Shown here one piece after another: positions 1 to 11,022 of a DNA stretch of 49,819 nucleotides. The stretch is from Paraglaciecola hydrolytica. GTDB taxonomy: Bacteria; Pseudomonadota; Gammaproteobacteria; Enterobacterales; Alteromonadaceae. The stretch is from positions 210,513-260,331 of the forward strand of contig NZ_LSNE01000002.1 of assembly GCF_001565895.1 (NCBI RefSeq), read 5' to 3'. Both the position numbers and the translations under genes were made by a program. The notes below the pieces were generated by a model, which had not been told where the DNA came from, ran no database searches, and worked only from the letters and a program-made list of their open reading frames with translations. Every line of letters starts with the position of its first letter. Position 1 is the stretch's first letter.

Positions 1-1020
1 CAAGTCTAGTTTGTCGTAATACACCACGGCCAATACGGTAAAACCGGCAATCATAAAATAACGAATAGGCATTAAAATCACAGAAACAAAACCGCTCATT
101 AAAGCACCTTCACGAGGTGATTTAGTGGCCAATATTTTTTGCATATCATAGTTAGGCATGGGGCCTGCGGCACTTTTGAAAATGCCGTTAAACAAGGTCA
201 TCATCACAAATATGCTAAACAGTGAGAAACCATCAGAGAGGATTTTTTCGTTTACTTCCGCAAAAATACCTTGCCAGTTTATATCTAAGTTCCATCCAAA
301 GAAGGGATCCATCCAACCTGCTGGTACTGCAGCATTGAGTGCTTCTGGTGACACTTGCATCATGGCTACGATGCCGATAAATAGGGCAGAGAAGGTCATA
401 ATCGAAAACTGCAACACGTCAGCCCACACTATGCTCATCATGCCGCCTAATATCACGTAGATGGTAGCGATGGCGGTAAATACTATGCCATAAAAATGCG
501 GAACGTAGGCGTCGGCAACGTCGAAAGGTACATAGGGGGAAACATTTTCCCAAGGGATGAAAATTTCAATAAACTTGCCTATGCCAACAAAACCATAGGC
601 TAGAAAACCCAGTGCGCCGATGACCGCAAAGGCAATAACAATCATGTGGGATAACTTGCCACTTTGACCGTCGCCAAAACGACTGCGTATCCACTCAGCA
701 CCGGTCAGTACATTAGAGCGGCGTAACCACATGGATAAATAAACGGCGAGGAAAATTTGATTAAATACCGGCCACAACCAAGGGATCCAGATGCTTTTCA
801 TGCCGTACACAAAACACAGAGTAACTAACCACATGGTTCCGGAAATATCGAACATGCCTGAGGCATTGGATAGCCCCAGTAAATACCAAGGGAGCTTTTT
901 ACCACCAACAAAGTAATCATCCATACTTTGTGCGGCACGTTTTTTAAGATAAAAACCAATACCAATAATGGCTGCGAGGTAAGCAGCGATAATGATAAGG
1001 TCAAGTAAGGCTATTTTCAT
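1..1020 (-). CDS. Sodium:solute symporter (SSS family), 3' end cut by window
   Basis: This is the N-terminal 340 residues of an inner-membrane sodium-coupled symporter. The reading frame is open from an ATG at 1020 to the window edge and the C-terminus is missing. The protein begins with a hydrophobic helix (IALLDLIIIAAYLAAIIGIG), followed by a DDYFVGGKKLPWYLLG stretch and GTMWLV typical of SSS helices 1-2, and later LGGMMSIVWADVLQF and GPMPNYDMQK, which are common in this family. At least eight hydrophobic segments are visible. Substrates of SSS proteins range from sugars to organic acids, and the sequence does not show which one applies. It shares operator motifs with the TonB receptor gene further upstream, so I infer that it carries the same nutrient across the inner membrane. 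Confidence 0.88.
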   Translation of the reverse strand, partial: MKIALLDLIIIAAYLAAIIGIGFYLKKRAAQSMDDYFVGGKKLPWYLLGLSNASGMFDISGTMWLVTLCFVYGMKSIWIPWLWPVFNQIFLAVYLSMWLRRSNVLTGAEWIRSRFGDGQSGKLSHMIVIAFAVIGALGFLAYGFVGIGKFIEIFIPWENVSPYVPFDVADAYVPHFYGIVFTAIATIYVILGGMMSIVWADVLQFSIMTFSALFIGIVAMMQVSPEALNAAVPAGWMDPFFGWNLDINWQGIFAEVNEKILSDGFSLFSIFVMMTLFNGIFKSAAGPMPNYDMQKILATKSPREGALMSGFVSVILMPIRYFMIAGFTVLAVVYYDKLDL

Positions 1021-1515: not shown

Positions 1516-2211
1516 TTAAAGGCAGTCAATAAAACTACTGATCGTAAGTCTGCCTTTTTGCGGATCGTCACTGAAATTAAAATCAGTGGGGATGGAGCCT
1601 GAATGTAGTGAATTACGACGATAAACTATCAACCGATTGAATATCCCTTTTTGTTCATTAATACGTTCAAATAAGGGGGTATTACCATTGATATAGCCTT
1701 CTTGCGGGATGTTATCACCATCATTTTCGCTTTCCAGTGACTTATAATAAGTGAGTTGGCGTGAAGCATCTATATATTCAAAGCCCGTTTTTTTATGCCG
1801 ATAAAATGAAGTACCGCCAAAATCTTGTTTAAAGAGATAAAAAACTGAGGCTAGGGCATTTTGCTCAACGGAGTCAAAATGGGGAATGCGTTGGAGTAGC
1901 TTGAGTTGCTTAGCAGGAGTTGTAACTAATGAATAGTGGCACAAGGCTAAGCTCAGTTTATTGCCTGTTAATGCGAAGATAGAAGGCGCATGTAGCTGCA
2001 AGGTACTCATCAAGAGTAATTGAAATTCTTTTGGCGCAAGCGCTCTTGGCCCTGGATAAAAAGGAGAGTTATATTCAAAAGACTGCTGGCTAGCGTGATC
2101 TAGTAATAATTCTGGGTTTTGTAAAAAGTTATCAATTACCAATAATGGCGCTTGCTCTGCACCAAGCTGATGAACACTGATAGCCATATTGTTGTGTAAG
2201 GATAAGTGCAT
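1516..2211 (-). CDS. DUF6445-family protein, probable Fe(II)/2-oxoglutarate dioxygenase fold
   Basis: Predicted 231 residues. It has the pattern of DUF6445 proteins: LLVIDNFLQNPELLLDHA near the start, then FYPGPRA. Function is not established. I see a possible iron-binding set typical of 2-oxoglutarate oxygenases: H111-F-D113 in PHFDS, H203 in SLHSG and R221 in KGRLTISSF, which together read as HxD...H...R. No signal peptide is present. The start chosen is the ATG at 2211, eight bases after the halogenase TGA stop. The frame stays open to 2238, which would overlap the upstream gene. It is the last gene of the receptor operon. The dioxygenase idea is inference from the residue pattern. Confidence 0.75.
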   Translation of the reverse strand: MHLSLHNNMAISVHQLGAEQAPLLVIDNFLQNPELLLDHASQQSFEYNSPFYPGPRALAPKEFQLLLMSTLQLHAPSIFALTGNKLSLALCHYSLVTTPAKQLKLLQRIPHFDSVEQNALASVFYLFKQDFGGTSFYRHKKTGFEYIDASRQLTYYKSLESENDGDNIPQEGYINGNTPLFERINEQKGIFNRLIVYRRNSLHSGSIPTDFNFSDDPQKGRLTISSFIDCL

Positions 2212-2219
2212 TTCAGTTC

Positions 2220-3716
2220 TCAGCGCGGGGCCTTGCAATAATGATTAACAAAATCCTGATGGCTAGGGAGTTTAGCCACCGCAGTATTAATTGTATTACG
2301 GGTATTGCTTAAGTGGCCCATTAACTCTTGGTCAGTCATGGTTTTAAATATGGAATGGTAGTGTTTAGGCATAATACCTTGACCTAACATGACGTGAGTC
2401 CAAGACTCGAGTCTGAATAGCTCTCTTTCGCCTTGAAAAGCGAGGGCATTTTCTCTAAACAGTTCCATGCGATGGGATAATGAATCCGGTACCTGCATAT
2501 TTTTACAATAACGCCAGAACTCACTGTCTTCGCGGGATGTGGCATGGTAGTGCAATATAATAAAGTCGCGTACGTTTTCTAGTTCAGCAATGGATTGTTG
2601 GTTGTATTCATCAATGGAGGATTTTGTTACACCATTAAATGGAAATATCTTCATCAAACGCACAATACCATTCATAAACATATAAATACTGGTTGATTCT
2701 AAAGGTTCAACAAAACCACTAGAAAGTCCTAAAGCAACACAGTTGCGGTTCCAAAAGACCTTACGTCGTCCAGTCTTATATTTGATTACTCTGGGCTCGG
2801 TTAATACTGCGCCTTGTACGTTGTCTAACAGATGTTTTTTTGCCTCAACGTCAGACATAAATTTATCGCAAAAAACATTGCCATTACCCACGCGGTGCTG
2901 CAAGGGAATATGCCACTGCCAACCAGCATGATGAGCAGTACAAGTCACATAGGGCGCTGCGGCGCCTACCGATTCGGTTTGTATCGCGATAGCGCTGTTA
3001 CACGGCAGCCAGTGTGACCAGTCTTCATATTCAGTTTTTAGCGTTTTATCAATTAACAAACCTGCAAAGCCTGTGCAATCGATAAATAAATCAGCATCAA
3101 TGACTTGTCCTGACTCTAACTGTAAGGCTTTAATATCACCATTAGCATGTTGCTGAACCAGTTGGATCTTGCCTTCAATACGTTTAGTACCGAGTTTTTC
3201 ACTAAACTGACGTAAGTATTGAGCATAACGAGTGGCATCTAAATGATAGGCATAATTAATACTACTGTTTTTAGAGGTAGCGAATTTCCCTGCTTTAGCG
3301 GCTTGAATTTCAAAGCTATATTCGCCAAATTCGGCGTTTATGCCTTTGCTTTTGCCATGTAACCAAAAGTGTTGAAAATCGGCTAAAAAGCTACTTTGGC
3401 CGGTAGTACCAAAGGGATGAATATAATGATCGCCAATTTGGCCCCAATTTTTAAATGAAATTCCTAACTTAAACGTGGCCTCAGTTGCAGCCATAAATTC
3501 TTGTTCATCAATACCCAACAATGAATGGAATACTTTCATGGGGGGAATAGTGGCTTCGCCAACTCCAACCGTACCGATTTGGTCAGATTCGACTAATATT
3601 ACCTCTACAAACTGTCCAAGTTTTTTAGACAAAGCGGCCGCCGCTACCCAACCCGCGGTGCCTCCACCTGCAATGACGACTTTCTTTACTTCATTGTTCT
3701 GCAAAATAGTTCTCAC
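2220..3716 (-). CDS. Flavin-dependent tryptophan halogenase-like protein
   Basis: 498 residues, the usual length for the Trp halogenase family (PF04820). An FAD-binding GGGTAGW motif lies at residues 17-23, followed by GVGEATIPP. The family signature WxWxIP is present as W266-Q-W268-H-I270-P271. Residues equivalent to the catalytic Lys and Glu of PrnA appear to be kept: K83 in ATFKLGISF and E340 in EPLESTSIY. It should be cytoplasmic and would need reduced FAD from a partner reductase, which is not encoded here. The start is GTG at 3716. Relatives in TonB-receptor loci have no assigned substrate and may not act on tryptophan. The gene lies 35 bp after the cupin gene, consistent with one operon. 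Confidence 0.88.
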   Translation of the reverse strand: MRTILQNNEVKKVVIAGGGTAGWVAAAALSKKLGQFVEVILVESDQIGTVGVGEATIPPMKVFHSLLGIDEQEFMAATEATFKLGISFKNWGQIGDHYIHPFGTTGQSSFLADFQHFWLHGKSKGINAEFGEYSFEIQAAKAGKFATSKNSSINYAYHLDATRYAQYLRQFSEKLGTKRIEGKIQLVQQHANGDIKALQLESGQVIDADLFIDCTGFAGLLIDKTLKTEYEDWSHWLPCNSAIAIQTESVGAAAPYVTCTAHHAGWQWHIPLQHRVGNGNVFCDKFMSDVEAKKHLLDNVQGAVLTEPRVIKYKTGRRKVFWNRNCVALGLSSGFVEPLESTSIYMFMNGIVRLMKIFPFNGVTKSSIDEYNQQSIAELENVRDFIILHYHATSREDSEFWRYCKNMQVPDSLSHRMELFRENALAFQGERELFRLESWTHVMLGQGIMPKHYHSIFKTMTDQELMGHLSNTRNTINTAVAKLPSHQDFVNHYCKAPR

Positions 3717-3751
3717 TTAGTTAACTTAGCTTACTATCACTTGGTGCCTGC

Positions 3752-4786
3752 TCAGCGATTGAGCTTATTTAATAACATGGCGCGCAAAGTTCTGGCTTTC
3801 ATTGGGTCTAATTTTCCTAAATGACCTTGGGCATGTTCTGGCAGATGCTGCGCGGCCTGCTGGCCATCACCAAAAATGTAATAATCAAAAACATGCCGCC
3901 ACGCTTGTTTTTCATGTTCTGGCTTATCCCGTAAACTCAACATAGCGTGATACAACACGTTCATGGCTGTACCTGTGTATTGAGGGGCTTCACTCCACCA
4001 ATAATTGATGAGTATGTTAAAAGGGCTCAAACCTTCAACTTGATGCCACCACATACTAGGCAAATACAGGGCATCGCCGGCTTCTAGTTCAGCAATCTGC
4101 CCATGAGCAAGAGCCTCAGGGAAATTTGGATAAAGATTTAAATCTGGTTCAGCAAAATCCACCATACTCAGAGCTTGGCCACCAGGGGTAATATCCAAAG
4201 GGCCAGGGTATAAATTAGCAATTTGCTCGGGTGGAAATAAGGTAAAGCGTCTTTTACCCACCACACAACAGGCTAAATTATCAGACATATCATAATGGCA
4301 GCAGGCCGTCGTGCGATTACCTATCCAGATACCAGCACGAATAGACTCAACTGGAGTCGTGCTATCTGGCCTTGGAATAACAATGTCATTGTCAGCTCTG
4401 AGCTGTGGAAAATGACTATCAATAAGGTTAGAGGCGATATAAAGCGATGGGGGTAGGGGATCATCAATTGTGGCTAAAATGAGATCTAAAAACTCGTCAA
4501 TACGGATTTGTTTGTTTTCGTAATTTAATCGAGTAACGTGCTCATCATAAAAAAAACGTCCTTTTAGTGAGGAAGAACCAAAATAGCCAAATGATGGCCT
4601 GCCATTATAATGCTGTTTCAAATAGTCGATACTAGCTTGAGGGGATTGCAAACCTAATTTAACTAACTTCCAATCACTCACTATCCCTTTCAGAATAATA
4701 GGCTCGGGAGAGACAAATATCTCTGCTGGGATCTGCCCCGCGGGGCAATTTTCTATGACCTTTGTTAGGGTTTTTATATTGCTCAT
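3752..4786 (-). CDS. Cupin-like / JmjC-domain hydroxylase (Cupin_8 type)
   Basis: 344 residues resembling FIH/JmjC-like Fe(II) and 2-oxoglutarate-dependent hydroxylases. The likely metal ligands are H164 and D166 in CCHYDMSDN and H248 in MWWHQVEG. Between them are the family hallmarks GKRRFTLFPPEQ and GDALYLPSMWW. No signal peptide is seen, so it should be cytoplasmic. Known relatives hydroxylate protein side chains, but no substrate is known for members in TonB-receptor loci. It lies between sapC-like and halogenase genes with 35-bp gaps on both sides, which fits one transcript. The ATG at 4786 has only a weak ribosome-binding site. Confidence 0.85.
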   Translation of the reverse strand: MSNIKTLTKVIENCPAGQIPAEIFVSPEPIILKGIVSDWKLVKLGLQSPQASIDYLKQHYNGRPSFGYFGSSSLKGRFFYDEHVTRLNYENKQIRIDEFLDLILATIDDPLPPSLYIASNLIDSHFPQLRADNDIVIPRPDSTTPVESIRAGIWIGNRTTACCHYDMSDNLACCVVGKRRFTLFPPEQIANLYPGPLDITPGGQALSMVDFAEPDLNLYPNFPEALAHGQIAELEAGDALYLPSMWWHQVEGLSPFNILINYWWSEAPQYTGTAMNVLYHAMLSLRDKPEHEKQAWRHVFDYYIFGDGQQAAQHLPEHAQGHLGKLDPMKARTLRAMLLNKLNR

Positions 4787-4821
4787 CGTTTATTCATTCA
4801 GTGCTAGTTTATTGCGCCGTT

Positions 4822-5559
4822 TTATTGTTTATGTTCTTGCCGATTTTTGAGTTCAATTAATTTTCTTATATTGGTCATTGAAAAAACGACAGCAAACGCG
4901 AGTTGTAAAAAGCCAGCTTTATTCAACTGCATTAATTGATCTGCAGTTAAGGCCTGAAGTTTGCTCTCGTTAATCGTAAAGTTACCGGTTAAACGATGCT
5001 TTTGACCATTATCTAAATCAATTTCAATCTTCACCGGCTCTATCAATTCAAATTGCTTAAAAGCGGTAAACATCAGGTCATTTACGGTCATACCTTGATG
5101 AGCAATATTCAATACTTTTGAAATGTATTCTAAATACGGGCTATTGCCACCTTGTTCTAAAAACAAGGCTTGGCCTTGTTCCTCGTTTACTCTAGGGTGG
5201 TCAACATCAATATGGATAACGGCTGTTTGTTGTTCATTATCATTTTGCTGACGTTGAAAACCAATTAAAAATGGACCACGAGCGATATTGGCCGGAATAT
5301 ACCGGGCCGCCCAACCAGATTCAGTAGTGGGATCTAAAAATAAATTTTCGTTTTGTTGCAAACCTAATAATGTCGTTGCAAAAAAATTTCCATTGGCTGG
5401 ATCTTGACGAAACAATATGGGGTACTCTTTTTGTAATTCTAAAAATTCCGTTGGATATACCATAACACTTGCAACATCGTCGCCGTAGCTATCAGCAAAC
5501 TGAGTGATCACGCGGATATTTTGATGATGAATATTATTGAGCAAAACATGTTTAGTCAT
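4822..5559 (-). CDS. SapC-like family protein
   Basis: 245 residues matching the SapC-like family (PF07277) by its early VMVYPTEFLELQKEYPILF block and the following GNFFATTLLGL. Members were first noted next to an S-layer gene in Campylobacter. In marine and plant-associated Gammaproteobacteria they recur beside TonB-dependent receptors, and their molecular role is not known. There is no signal peptide, membrane helix or recognised catalytic motif. The gene is second in the receptor operon, 173 bp after the receptor, and that gap contains a strong hairpin. Confidence 0.85.
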   Translation of the reverse strand: MTKHVLLNNIHHQNIRVITQFADSYGDDVASVMVYPTEFLELQKEYPILFRQDPANGNFFATTLLGLQQNENLFLDPTTESGWAARYIPANIARGPFLIGFQRQQNDNEQQTAVIHIDVDHPRVNEEQGQALFLEQGGNSPYLEYISKVLNIAHQGMTVNDLMFTAFKQFELIEPVKIEIDLDNGQKHRLTGNFTINESKLQALTADQLMQLNKAGFLQLAFAVVFSMTNIRKLIELKNRQEHKQ

Positions 5560-5672
5560 AAAGGGGATACCGTAATATTGCTGTTGTAAAAATTACATAA
5601 TCTATATTAACTCATTGAAAGAGTAACAATTATTTAACCATAAACAGGTGGTAATTAGAATGGAAAATAAAC

Positions 5673-5698
5673 AAAAGCCGCTGAGATCAGCGGCTTTT
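5673..5698. terminator. Strong hairpin between the TonB receptor and sapC-like genes
   Basis: A 12-bp perfect inverted repeat (AAAAGCCGCTGA and TCAGCGGCTTTT) with a very short loop and flanking A/T runs makes a good intrinsic terminator in either direction. It lies 34 bp after the receptor stop, within what otherwise looks like one operon. Partial termination here would make the receptor far more abundant than the downstream enzymes. Confidence 0.75.
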
Positions 5699-5732
5699 AA
5701 TTAACACTTTTTGGTACTAACTAACATCGCTA

Positions 5733-8700
5733 TTAGAATTTGTAACGTGCACCAACTTGGTAACGAGCACCTAAGTCATACATGTCCCACATCATGTCGT
5801 AGTTACGACCATGAGAGCGGCTGTTTTCACCTGTTACGTTGATACCTTCAAATGAAACAGTTAAGTCTTCAGTCACATCGTAACTGACGTTAACATCAAT
5901 TTGTGAATAAGCTTCAATATAACGCGGGTTAGCTGAACCACCACGGCTTGTTTCATTCAAATACTCACCGCGCCAGTTGTAGGATATCCGAGCTTGTAGG
6001 CCGTCTTTTTCGTACATACCGATTAAGTTTGCGGTATCACTTAAACCAACTAAAGCAAATTGTGACACTGTAGTACTGCCTTCGTTATCAAAACCTATAT
6101 CACCACGAACGATAGTGTAGTTGGCTTGTACACCAAAGCCTGTTTCACCAAAGAAGTGTTGTACGGCAAATTCTGCACCGTAAATTTTAGCTTCTTTACC
6201 GTTATTTGGCGTATTGGTTCTAAAAGTGATCTCTGGATCTTCATCACGAGACTCAATATCCCATAAACCGCCGCCTCTGTTGGCTAGGTAGAAGTTTTGT
6301 GCATCAGTGGCTGTATATTCAACGTTACCAAATTGCGCAATCCAATCTGGATGACCTTTAGCAAATTCAGTGTAAACCATCATGCCGTGTAAGTTATCAT
6401 CGTTGAGTGCATATCCAGCGGCTTGTAACGCAGCAGCTGCAGCTTGTGCACGAGGACCACCGGTAACATCACGAATACCCAAAATTTTACGGTTTACTTG
6501 TTCGGAACCAATAAAGTTATAAACGTTTTTCTCGAATATGCCCGCAGAAACATAACTGTAAGGGTTGTAATACCACTCAACAGATAAATCAAAGTTAGTT
6601 GATTCTAAAGGCAACAAACCTGGGTTTGAAGCCGAAGCTGTAGGCACTGCACCTAACAAGGTTGAACCACCGCCAGCACCAAAACCAGAAGCAGACACAC
6701 CTAAACTGCCTAAACCAGCACGTGCAATTGTTTTACTAAAAGAAAAACGGCTGACTATATCATCGGTAACTTTAAGAGTTAAATCTAAGCTCGGTAACAA
6801 GTTATCATAGCTTGCATCAGCAGATGCTAGAGCAGAAGGCTTACTGCTATCTACACGAATAGCAACATCGTTGTTATCTTCCCACACACCTTTGTAAGCA
6901 GCAGCTAATGAACTTGAAAATACATCAGTAGCTTCATAACGCAAACCAGCCAAAACATTAAAAGGCATGTTGCCAACTTCACCGTTAAGGGTAAATTGGA
7001 AATAAGCTGCTGTGGTTTTTTCGTTTACTAGGTTATCAGCTGTTTGGCTCATAGCTGCTGGTAAAAAACCGCTATAACGACCAATTTTTTGTGCTGCTTC
7101 ATACATTTCTACTGCACTTGCATTAAAACCATAACCGCCTGCACGAGGGTTCCAGTCATCAAATTCACCCTGAATATCAAAAGGTTGAACGATATCGCCA
7201 AACTCACCTGGATATCCCGCATTCCAGTTACCTAAGGCAACGTTGTTTGCAGCATAGTTAAGTGAGTGAGATTCCATATCACGGGTTTCAAGACCAAAAT
7301 CAAACTTACCATCGTCAAATTCATATGTCCCATCAACTTTAATTTGAGTAATAGATGATTTTTGATCAGCTTGACGTAAGTTAAACATGGATGAACTAAT
7401 GTCACCACTTTCAACTATACCGTTACCATTAGATTCAAAACCAGTGTTACCACCTTTGGTATCATCATAAACGTTTAAGTAAGTTGGGAATTCACCACCA
7501 AACCACCATTCTCTTTCAACAACAGTTGGATTACCAAGTCCCATACGTACAGATCCTGTACCGTAAGGGCCGGTACCACGGCTGTGCATTTCTGAATCAT
7601 GTACGTCTAAGCGTAAGCTAAAGGCGTCGTTAACTTGATAGGCTAAGTTAATACCTAGTGACGTTAGAGTGTTGGTTTGGTCACGGTCTTGTTGCTCATG
7701 ACCTTCGTCAATTCCACTTGGATAAATTTCACGAGCATAAATAGGTGTTGCGATAGTTTGGTTATCAAATTCAATTTCTTGAAGTCTGGAACCTGCTTGC
7801 ATCCAGTTACCTGTTTGACCTAAATGTTCTTGGATGTGGTTTTCCGCAAAAGTGTAATCTACGGTACCAGTGAAATTATCAGTAGGAGCAAATTGCAGGG
7901 TTAATTGTGCGTTATCACGAGTACGCTGAGTATCAGTAAATTCATAACGCAAATCGTTGAAACGAGCATATAACTGACCTTCGTCCGGCGCATTTATTAC
8001 CACAGTATCGGCGTTATTCCAGTGGCGACCAGGGTTGTTAATACTATCCCAAACGCGAATATTCCAATCGTTAACAGTGGCGCCAACAGTACCTGAGTCA
8101 CGCTCTTGATGACTTGCAGATAAAGATACACCCCAAGTTGAATCATCATTAGTAAAACTGAAAATGCCTGATACTTCAGGTGTGACATCGTCACCTGCAC
8201 GATTAGTGGTATCCATTGCTGCTTTTGCACCAACGCTGGCAACAAAACCTTCACTACTTAGCGGTTTGCCAGTAATGATGTTAATTGTTGCACCTATGCC
8301 ACCTGTTGTAATTGCTGCTTTACCAGTTTTATAAACTTCAACCGCGCGTACACTTTCAGACGCTAGGTTAGCAAAATCAAATGCGCGAGAACCGCCGCCA
8401 TCACCATTAAAGGTTGATGCTGCTGGCATGGTACGTCCGTTTAAGGTCACCATGTTATTGCCGGCACCAAAACCACGCACCGTTACTTGTGAACCTTCAC
8501 CGTTACTACGGCTTATTGATACACCTGTAATACGTTGAAGTGATTCAGCAAGGTTAGTATCAGGGAATTTACCTATATCTTCTGCAGATATTGCATCAAC
8601 AACACCCATAGATTCGCGTTTGATAGACGTTGAAGCTTGTAAGCTGCCGCGTATACCACGAACCTGAATGATTTCAGTGTCGTCTGTGGCAGGTGCCGCT

Positions 8701-8795
8701 TCTTGAGCCATCAATGGTGACATCACAGATGCCCCCAACATTAAGGTAATACTTTTAGCGAGTAGCGTTTTATTAAATTTATTATATGAATTCAT
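5733..8795 (-). CDS. TonB-dependent outer-membrane receptor (Xanthomonas/Caulobacter type)
   Basis: 1020 residues. A signal peptide starts MNSYNKFNKTLLAKSITLML and ends near MSPLMAQEA. A TonB-box-like EIIQVRG follows, and then a plug domain with DIGKFPDTNLAESLQRITGV and VTVRGFG. The C-terminal beta-barrel ends in phenylalanine (VGARYKF). The N-terminal pattern matches the large TIGR01782-like subfamily that often imports oligosaccharides. The frame is open to 8876, but that extension would run close to the promoter and lacks a signal peptide, so the ATG at 8795 is chosen. The promoter upstream abuts a LacI-type operator. It probably leads the operon with sapC-like, cupin, halogenase and DUF6445 genes. 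Substrate unknown. Confidence 0.93.
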   Translation of the reverse strand: MNSYNKFNKTLLAKSITLMLGASVMSPLMAQEAAPATDDTEIIQVRGIRGSLQASTSIKRESMGVVDAISAEDIGKFPDTNLAESLQRITGVSISRSNGEGSQVTVRGFGAGNNMVTLNGRTMPAASTFNGDGGGSRAFDFANLASESVRAVEVYKTGKAAITTGGIGATINIITGKPLSSEGFVASVGAKAAMDTTNRAGDDVTPEVSGIFSFTNDDSTWGVSLSASHQERDSGTVGATVNDWNIRVWDSINNPGRHWNNADTVVINAPDEGQLYARFNDLRYEFTDTQRTRDNAQLTLQFAPTDNFTGTVDYTFAENHIQEHLGQTGNWMQAGSRLQEIEFDNQTIATPIYAREIYPSGIDEGHEQQDRDQTNTLTSLGINLAYQVNDAFSLRLDVHDSEMHSRGTGPYGTGSVRMGLGNPTVVEREWWFGGEFPTYLNVYDDTKGGNTGFESNGNGIVESGDISSSMFNLRQADQKSSITQIKVDGTYEFDDGKFDFGLETRDMESHSLNYAANNVALGNWNAGYPGEFGDIVQPFDIQGEFDDWNPRAGGYGFNASAVEMYEAAQKIGRYSGFLPAAMSQTADNLVNEKTTAAYFQFTLNGEVGNMPFNVLAGLRYEATDVFSSSLAAAYKGVWEDNNDVAIRVDSSKPSALASADASYDNLLPSLDLTLKVTDDIVSRFSFSKTIARAGLGSLGVSASGFGAGGGSTLLGAVPTASASNPGLLPLESTNFDLSVEWYYNPYSYVSAGIFEKNVYNFIGSEQVNRKILGIRDVTGGPRAQAAAAALQAAGYALNDDNLHGMMVYTEFAKGHPDWIAQFGNVEYTATDAQNFYLANRGGGLWDIESRDEDPEITFRTNTPNNGKEAKIYGAEFAVQHFFGETGFGVQANYTIVRGDIGFDNEGSTTVSQFALVGLSDTANLIGMYEKDGLQARISYNWRGEYLNETSRGGSANPRYIEAYSQIDVNVSYDVTEDLTVSFEGINVTGENSRSHGRNYDMMWDMYDLGARYQVGARYKF

Positions 8796-8881
8796 AGTGT
8801 TCTGGCCTTTTGTGTTCCTGTTTATAGAATCAAAAAATGTAACGTTTACAAAACGCATTGAAAATCCAGCGAACAATGTAC

Positions 8882-9216: not shown

Positions 9217-11022
9217 TTAATTTGCTAGCCAGTTTGACGTTTTTGACACTGAGTCTGTGGTTAAATAAATGGTGTCTAAGGGGGCTATTCGAACCTTAAA
9301 TGGTAATTGCAACAGGCGTTTATCCCGCAAGACGTACAATGTAGTGAGTTGCCCATCATCTAATTGATTCAGTAAACGGTAAGCATTTTGTGCACTCACT
9401 TGCCATGTATCAATAGCAATAAGTTGATCGCCTGCCATCAGGTTGGCCTCAAAGGCTGCAGAGTTTTGATTTACTTGAGTGACTTCGATACCAGTAGTGC
9501 TAGGTTTAAACTGGGCACCAAAATCATTTTTAATTACTTTGTCGGCGGGATTACCGCCTTTGTCATTGATGTCTACTCTGGCTCTGTAATTGACTTGTAC
9601 ACCAAAAGCCTTCAAAAGGGCTTCGACAGGCAGTTCATCTGTCGTGTAAATAGCTGCGTCTAAGTCGAAATAATCACTGAGATCCAATTGTAGATGTTCA
9701 CTTAAGATATCGTGGATAACTGTTTTAGGAGTAGGGCGAGCTGTCTTGCCAAACTCCTGCCAAAGGCACTGCATTACATCGTCGAGAGAATAACGTTGGT
9801 TTGATACCAATCTAATGGCTAAGTCTAAACATAAGGCCACAATAGCGCCTTTATTGTAATAACTGACAATATTATTAATGGCACCTTCATCTTGTTTATA
9901 AAACTTGGTCCACGCATCAAAACTCGACTCAGTTACACTTTGTTTTAATCTTCCGCTATTTCGTTGCAAGCGTGTCAGGTTTTGTCCTACTACAAGTAAA
10001 TAGTCTTGTAGTGAAATCAACTTGCTGCGTTGCAACAACAAATCATCGTAATAGCTGGTAAATCCTTCATAGATCCACAATTGTTCGGTGTAACTTTCAG
10101 TTGCTAGTGTGCCGCTTACCAGTTCAACAGGTCTGATACGTTTGACATGCCAAGTGTGGAAAAACTCATGACTGCACAAACTTAAAAAATTCCGATAGCC
10201 TTCGCTAGGTTGGCTATGTTCGGCTACGTCGGGTAGTTCATGACGGGCATACATCAAAGCGGTAGACGCTCTGTGTTCTAGCCCTCCAAAGGCTGAGTCG
10301 GTAAGCAAGGTAATAAAGATATAACGTTCAATCGGCGCGGGGCTGCCAAACAATTGCAAATGTTGTTGGCATACCACTGACAAATCATTAGCAATACGCT
10401 GCATATCACTTTGATGACCACCGGCAAATACTAATTCACAATCGATAGTGCCAATTTTAAACCGTACAGTATCAAAATCTCCCATTAAAAAAGGATGATC
10501 AATCAGCTCTGCGTAATTTTCTGCATGATAGCGTGTTTCATCTTGATTACTTTGAAGGGTAACAAGCGGCATGCTGGTGACCACGGCAAAGTTATTAAAA
10601 AGATGGGAGGCATGTTTTATGTTCAACAAACACGGACTGTTTGCCTGTCCTTCAACTTCTAAAAACAGGTTTGAGCCATTAAAAAATCCATACTGATCAT
10701 TAATATAGGCCCCTCTGACAGATAGATCGTAAGCGTAGAGTTGATACTCCACGATAATACATCCTTCAGTTGGTTCTACTAACCAAGTTTGTTTGTCAGA
10801 TTTGCTGAGTTTAAGACTTTTGCCATCTTCATTTTTAGCTGTCAGGGTGATGATATGTTTGGCAAAATCTCTGATCATATAACTGCCGGGGATCCACGCA
10901 GGTAAACGGAGGACTTGGCCCTGTGGTTCGGGTGACATTATATGTAATGTAACATTAAATAAATGCCCTGAAATTGAGCTTAGGGTAACGTCATAGCGGA
11001 TAGGGAAATTGGGAGTTGGCAT
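9217..11022 (-). CDS. M61-family metallopeptidase with PDZ domain
   Basis: 601 residues with the glycyl-aminopeptidase (M61) layout. The N-terminal beta region contains LPAWIPGSYMIRDFAKHI, the typical M61 block. The zinc motif is H285-E-F-F-H289 in SHEFFHTWHVKRIRP, with the third ligand probably E319 in LWIYEGFTSYY. A GGLEHRAS stretch (246-253) replaces the GAMEN-like motif. A C-terminal PDZ domain occupies roughly residues 490-580, with GIEVTQVNQNSAAFEANLMAGD. No signal peptide is visible, so it is likely cytoplasmic. It appears to be a single-gene unit, divergent from the PilZ gene. Confidence 0.9.
   Translation of the reverse strand: MPTPNFPIRYDVTLSSISGHLFNVTLHIMSPEPQGQVLRLPAWIPGSYMIRDFAKHIITLTAKNEDGKSLKLSKSDKQTWLVEPTEGCIIVEYQLYAYDLSVRGAYINDQYGFFNGSNLFLEVEGQANSPCLLNIKHASHLFNNFAVVTSMPLVTLQSNQDETRYHAENYAELIDHPFLMGDFDTVRFKIGTIDCELVFAGGHQSDMQRIANDLSVVCQQHLQLFGSPAPIERYIFITLLTDSAFGGLEHRASTALMYARHELPDVAEHSQPSEGYRNFLSLCSHEFFHTWHVKRIRPVELVSGTLATESYTEQLWIYEGFTSYYDDLLLQRSKLISLQDYLLVVGQNLTRLQRNSGRLKQSVTESSFDAWTKFYKQDEGAINNIVSYYNKGAIVALCLDLAIRLVSNQRYSLDDVMQCLWQEFGKTARPTPKTVIHDILSEHLQLDLSDYFDLDAAIYTTDELPVEALLKAFGVQVNYRARVDINDKGGNPADKVIKNDFGAQFKPSTTGIEVTQVNQNSAAFEANLMAGDQLIAIDTWQVSAQNAYRLLNQLDDGQLTTLYVLRDKRLLQLPFKVRIAPLDTIYLTTDSVSKTSNWLAN

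Follow-up and report, generated by a model that had tools for sequence, protein, structure and literature searches.

Many flavin-dependent halogenases have no known natural substrate. Xcc4156 (Protein Data Bank (PDB) entry 6y1w) is a bromination-only enzyme for which the authors suggest peptide substrates (PMC7336383). Both Xcc4156 and BrvH (6frl) were reported to brominate indole derivatives in vitro (PMC7336383, PMC5945002), although indole was considered by the BrvH authors as perhaps not the natural substrate (PMC5945002). The available text of the Xcc4156 paper (PMC7336383) mentions neither an operon nor a receptor, and that of the BrvH paper (PMC5945002) mentions neither TonB nor SapC. 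A precedent for cytoplasmic modification of a protein Trp residue by a halogenase-like flavoenzyme is QhpG (PMC7876137), and another paper offers only the speculation that an unknown tryptophan halogenase may act on virus-host receptor interactions (PMC11337851). Here we describe a 49,819-nucleotide stretch of DNA from Paraglaciecola hydrolytica (contig NZ_LSNE01000002.1; the whole stretch is hereafter called the window) in which a relative of Xcc4156 is encoded in a five-gene operon together with a TonB-dependent receptor, a SapC family protein, and two predicted Fe(II)/2-oxoglutarate (2OG) oxygenases. Papers on sugar-uptake loci of Xanthomonas and Shewanella reportedly mention halogenase genes beside receptors; the five-gene unit is undescribed in the portions of the open-licence literature that were searched.

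A five-gene unit conserved in order

The operon lies on the minus strand and encodes, in the order of transcription, a TonB-dependent receptor of the TIGR01782 subfamily (5733..8795; 632 bits versus a cut-off of 310, with plug and barrel domains), a SapC family protein (PF07277; 4822..5559; 222 versus 28.9 bits), an FIH-like Cupin_8/JmjC-type Fe(II)/2OG oxygenase (3752..4786; Cupin_8, 226 versus 27.4 bits), a flavin-dependent halogenase of the Xcc4156 type (PF04820; 2220..3716; Trp_halogenase, 613 versus 21 bits), and a DUF6445 protein (1516..2211, counted from its ATG; 263 versus 24 bits). The receptor gene starts with the ATG at 8795, within an open reading frame (ORF) that opens with TTG at 8876, and its stop codon ends at 5733. 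An earlier note on this DNA had described the five genes as running in one direction with gaps of 173, 35, 35, and 8 bp, and all of these features were confirmed.

Conservation was assessed in 80 loci from other genomes, being the best 80 of 375 confirmed relatives fetched with a profile of 27 DUF6445 proteins, and gene families were assigned with hidden Markov models built for this analysis. Because the loci were picked by DUF6445 similarity, this gene is present in all 80 by construction, which is not so for the other four. The arrangement receptor-SapC-Cupin_8-halogenase-DUF6445 was found in exact order on one strand in 65 of the 80 loci, where the median ORF gaps were 107, 3, 30, and 7 bp; all five families were present in 70. 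Since so many loci of other genomes keep the exact order, the arrangement is more than chance. The genera represented include Rheinheimera, Gilvimarinus, Paraglaciecola, Microbulbifer, Saccharophagus, Pseudoxanthomonas, Luteimonas, and Rhodanobacter. Among the 15 loci without the exact order, two (L099 and L114) hold all five genes, with an overshooting ORF start that upsets the sorting, and three (L076, L109, and L118) hold all five families rearranged or with additional copies. One to three families are missing from four loci (L044, L066, L067, and L078), the locus end cuts within the halogenase gene in two (L070 and L094), and DUF6445 stands alone in four (L084, L086, L093, and L113). The earlier note had called for a co-occurrence search of this kind; the possibility that the five genes are rarely found together is refuted by these counts. 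Both the conservation of the unit and the sharpness of its definition go beyond what could be seen from the sequence alone.

The halogenase and its link to Xcc4156

The best PDB relative of the window halogenase is Xcc4156 (E 6.9e-177), with an almost gapless alignment over 488 residues at ∼53% identity; BrvH, likewise an orphan flavin-dependent brominase, is another of the closest known systems. The GxGxxG and WxWxIP motifs (as GGGTAG and GWQWHIP) are present together with the catalytic K83 and E340. By these motifs the protein belongs to the flavin-dependent halogenases (PF04820), and halogenating activity is predicted. Residue conservation was scored in 66 sequences per family: the GxGxxG glycines, K83, W266, W268, I270, and E340 are kept in 66/66 halogenases, and P271, the proline of WxWxIP, in 51/66. 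QhpG and the LodB/GoxB maturases are halogenase-like flavoproteins as well; membership of the window enzyme in these families was ruled out by scores of 31, 20, and 22 bits versus cut-offs of 240, 400, and 400 for QhpG, LodB, and GoxB, respectively.

When the halogenases of the 80 loci and the 18 intact ones of the P. hydrolytica genome were compared with Xcc4156, the closest (58% identity at best) were members of the cassette or of rearranged cassettes, and the closest within P. hydrolytica was that of the window (53%). Matches to Xcc4156 at E 1e-200 or better occurred in 25 of 119 genomes of one other family. The three best of these, from one genus that is presumably Xanthomonas, are 88-90% identical to Xcc4156, and a fourth genome of that genus carries an 88% identical copy with an internal stop. 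Two of the three best loci were fetched, and both show the order receptor-SapC-Cupin_8-halogenase (halogenases 89-90% identical to Xcc4156) with DUF6445 absent within ∼18-19 kb. The receptor, SapC, cupin, and halogenase genes also stand together in 6/6 further genomes whose halogenase is 62-71% identical to Xcc4156, one of which has a weak DUF6445 match on the opposite strand. The two operons with 89-90% identical halogenases thus tie a studied orphan enzyme to the cassette. Because the Xcc4156-like loci have no adjoining DUF6445 gene, in contrast to the window, we take the core to be four genes, to which DUF6445 is added in the lineage of the window and in related ones. A variant order, receptor-halogenase-SapC-cupin-halogenase, was seen in three of these six further genomes (L227-L229), where a second halogenase (32-34% identical to Xcc4156 in two of them) lies between receptor and SapC.

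Linkage of halogenases to receptors across genomes

The P. hydrolytica genome holds 22 strong PF04820 ORFs, 29 full-length TIGR01782 receptors, 4 SapC, 4 Cupin_8, and 3 DUF6445 proteins. In 12 genomes from the family to which P. hydrolytica belongs, 83 halogenase-like genes were counted (84 rows, less one that falls in the same ORF as another), and 70 of them have a TIGR01782 receptor gene no more than 5 kb away, as compared with 3.9 expected at random placement. The remaining 13 comprise five on contigs without a listed receptor, one at 5,155 bp, and seven at distances of 10.7-210 kb. When 108 receptors were classified, 46 were linked to a halogenase (≤3.5 kb), 7 had one at 3.5-20 kb, and 55 were unlinked. 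The linked state requires 14 changes on the receptor tree, whereas 500 shuffles required 35 on average and never fewer than 28: particular receptor lineages have had a halogenase beside them for a long time.

Four of the 22 PF04820 proteins of the P. hydrolytica genome have lost both GxGxxG and WxWxIP (L029:5992-7440(-), L031:8709-10172(-), L034:7373-8845(+), and L038:7459-8967(+)); each directly adjoins an intact one near a TIGR01782 receptor, and a role as pseudo-enzyme partner is possible. At L031:3372-7148(-), an FG-GAP/UnbV_ASPIC protein and a protein with DUF6851 and vanadium-chloroperoxidase-like domains are encoded, flanked by three halogenase-like genes on one side and a DUF6445 gene on the other, so that such clusters may include another type of halogenating enzyme.

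The two Fe(II)/2OG enzymes and SapC

The best solved relatives of the cupin are FIH (E 2.5e-18) and other JmjC hydroxylases (JMJD5, JMJD7, and TYW5), FIH and JMJD5 being protein hydroxylases. They share its metal site, and the alignment with FIH covers residues 157-269 only. Its HxD...H iron site (H164, D166, and H248) is kept in 66/66 sequences. No sequence match of DUF6445 to any PDB chain was found at E 1. Its predicted structure is a double-stranded beta-helix with an HxD...H...R site that aligns best to OGFOD1, followed by lysyl and prolyl hydroxylases, with 8-17% identity to OGFOD1/Tpa1, PHD2, and lysyl hydroxylases in the listed structural alignments. The model points to a 2OG oxygenase fold of the prolyl/lysyl hydroxylase type; the substrate cannot be read from such a resemblance. 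Overall, the catalytic residues of the enzymes are invariant or nearly so in the 66 sequences.

SapC takes its name from a role in the surface layer. A Foldseek search with its predicted fold gave no convincing PDB match, VIA re-examining Foldseek's list only, and the missing match is no proof of a new fold. A role of the four accessory proteins in anti-phage defence was rejected, as PADLOC returned no match for any of them.

A hairpin after the receptor gene and predicted protein location

A terminator-like hairpin with a 12-bp stem and a T-rich tail lies between the receptor and SapC genes (5672..5699, minus strand; gap z-score -2.9). Such hairpins were detected in 37 of the 66 receptor-SapC gaps of five-gene operons, with 9.3 expected from base shuffling, and in 6 of 195 other operon gaps, which are shorter, so that this last comparison is not length-matched. 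A simple reading is that the hairpin is a terminator with read-through, which would provide much receptor and little enzyme.

Judged by eye, the receptor N-terminus from the ATG at 8795 resembles a signal peptide, and the other four proteins have no such stretch. A crude hydropathy scan found strongly hydrophobic N-termini in 1, 0, 2, and 1 of the 66 SapC, cupin, halogenase, and DUF6445 orthologues, respectively. Upstream of the receptor, on the same strand, the window encodes an M61 glycyl aminopeptidase with a PDZ domain (9217-11022, minus strand), and M61 was also found in 2 of the 54 neighbors scanned in related loci.

The glycan setting

Downstream of the operon, on the same strand, are the 5' part of a sodium:solute symporter gene (1..1020; SSF, 45 bits) and, beyond the window, genes for GH94 (543 bits) and GH5 (132 bits) enzymes. 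The symporter is represented by two ORFs (contig C2:209531-211598(-)), and only the beginning of the Pfam profile is matched; either the gene is split or frameshifted, or the sequence contains an error. A receptor gene beside symporter, GH94, and GH5 genes places the operon with the carbohydrate-utilisation loci that have TonB-dependent transporters. It differs from them in its oxidative enzymes, which are not carbohydrate-active families and stay constant while the glycan genes change. The operons of chosen relatives adjoin MFS and GH94 (Paraglaciecola), GH67 (Microbulbifer), GH3 (Gilvimarinus), or GH9 genes, and these neighbors are consistent with beta-1,4-glucan or xylan fragments as the cargo. 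They are a minority: scanning 54 of 136 candidate neighbors gave 83 Pfam families, of which the commonest (GH3) occurred in 5/54. Elsewhere in the P. hydrolytica genome, members of the cassette's enzyme families stand beside pullulanase, GH95, GH16, GH115, or N-acetylglucosamine (GlcNAc)-type genes. The enzymes do not follow a single glycan. One locus (L032:2325-13581) combines a receptor and two halogenases with a third, convergent halogenase, a BadF-type kinase, SIS, and an amidohydrolase, and looks like a cluster for GlcNAc use.

Discussion

We tentatively favor the reading that the locus is a conserved cassette in which a glycan-uptake receptor is accompanied by enzymes for the oxidative tailoring of a polypeptide, and that this polypeptide is most likely the receptor itself before Sec export. 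Polypeptide tailoring is the most economical reading because relatives of the three enzyme types either have protein substrates or have been suggested to accept peptides; the partner that stays constant is the receptor. Under such a scheme, most transcripts would end at the hairpin 3' of the receptor gene, and read-through would yield smaller amounts of SapC, cupin, halogenase, and DUF6445. These four proteins, apparently without signal peptides, would work in the cytoplasm, where the halogenase, having an open active site like that of Xcc4156, may brominate the side chain of a Trp or Tyr residue and the cupin and DUF6445 may hydroxylate residues of the same polypeptide, while SapC may bind or present the receptor. 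The system proposed in the earlier note holds up in part: there is one conserved unit with a TIGR01782 receptor, in a glycan-uptake setting, and it encodes three enzymes with intact catalytic residues, two of the Fe(II)/2OG type and one halogenase of the flavin adenine dinucleotide type. Modification of the receptor, of its cargo, or of a peptide, as suggested there, is a possibility.

Several observations weigh against the favored reading. The scan for signal peptides was crude and of low power, because the receptor's own leader scored 1.62, under the threshold of 2.0. In FIH, a Lys residue binds 2OG; the cupin has R179 at that place, with Arg in 66/66 sequences, and is for this reason classed as FIH-like rather than as an FIH orthologue. 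For DUF6445, the top Foldseek ranks are taken by small-molecule 2OG oxygenases. Some close tree neighbors of the cassette receptors have no halogenase linked to them, and the genome of one such neighbor (G019) has no PF04820 match at E 1e-30. Trp was not enriched in the halogenase-linked receptors of the P. hydrolytica genome (10 versus 19 receptors, p 0.19), halogenase and receptor paralogues showed no significant co-variation over ten pairs (r 0.24, p 0.14), and column scans of 46 linked versus 55 unlinked receptors gave weak, partial differences that follow the tree, with no single marker residue. Conserved Trp residues of the receptor include W271, W276, W358, W551, W665, W768, and W968, in the numbering of the 1047-residue ORF. 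In a narrower alignment of 71 receptors, two of these, W551 and W768, hardly varied, whereas three unlinked sisters had mostly lost them. Both contrasts were dropped, since they do not hold in a wider alignment, where all three unlinked sisters have Trp at the W551 column and W768 is present in 9 of 16 comparison receptors, and since the 79 cassette receptors form one clade. P297, which had looked linked to DUF6445, was dropped as well, because operons that lack a neighboring DUF6445 gene retain it in all six receptors checked.

The same enzyme relationships would suit a different protein or peptide encoded elsewhere, such as a surface lipoprotein or a secreted enzyme working with the receptor, and the lack of a target residue in the receptor speaks for this. 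We nevertheless consider it unlikely, given that no other family is constant among the 54 neighbors scanned and that no small ORF recurs. The search for such ORFs (ATG starts only, BLAST E 1e-4) covered 523 small ORFs in 198 flanking or gap regions, and the largest similarity cluster spans nine regions, from Rheinheimera and one unassigned relative. As no small ORF recurs widely, it is unlikely that a precursor peptide is encoded next to the operon, as it would be in a pathway for ribosomally synthesized and post-translationally modified peptides.

A small-molecule substrate, whether an aromatic or phenolic component of the glycan material brought in or a metabolite that the cell produces or imports, would agree with the bromination of indole derivatives by Xcc4156 and BrvH, with the Foldseek ranking for DUF6445, and with the neighbors of some loci that suit xylan or beta-glucan use. 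It is nonetheless improbable: the BrvH authors doubt indole as the natural substrate (PMC5945002), and the unit holds no biosynthetic genes. The enzymes are apparently cytoplasmic, whereas the receptor delivers to the periplasm. Modification of the cargo is further weakened because the same families adjoin pullulanase, GH95, GH16, or GlcNAc-type genes while the receptor family stays their constant neighbor. FIH and PHD2, to which the cupin and the DUF6445 fold are related, are oxygen sensors in animals, and the hairpin 3' of the receptor gene is a possible control point; the Fe(II)/2OG enzymes and SapC might thus mainly sense oxygen, iron, or 2OG and control the receptor level, with the halogenase as a helper. 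We regard this as very improbable, as the unit has no constant transcription factor (LacI domains in 3 of 54 neighbors scanned) and an intact halogenase would be left unexplained.

The receptor stays the preferred substrate. The results suggest that some bacteria may chemically finish their surface receptors. A bolder version, of which we are rather doubtful, would be that outer-membrane receptors for glycan uptake are brominated and hydroxylated by the very bacteria that make them, through an operon-encoded set of a peptide halogenase, an FIH-like oxygenase, an oxygenase with the prolyl-hydroxylase fold, and SapC as the carrier, and that Xcc4156 and many other orphan flavin halogenases are receptor-tailoring rather than natural-product enzymes. 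Because Xcc4156 has already been purified and crystallized, the idea of receptor peptides as substrates is directly testable. If the cassette does act on its receptor, the natural role of enzymes such as Xcc4156 would be explained, DUF6445 and SapC would gain a function, and halogenation and hydroxylation, for which we know of no precedent in this setting, would be steps in the making of bacterial surface receptors.

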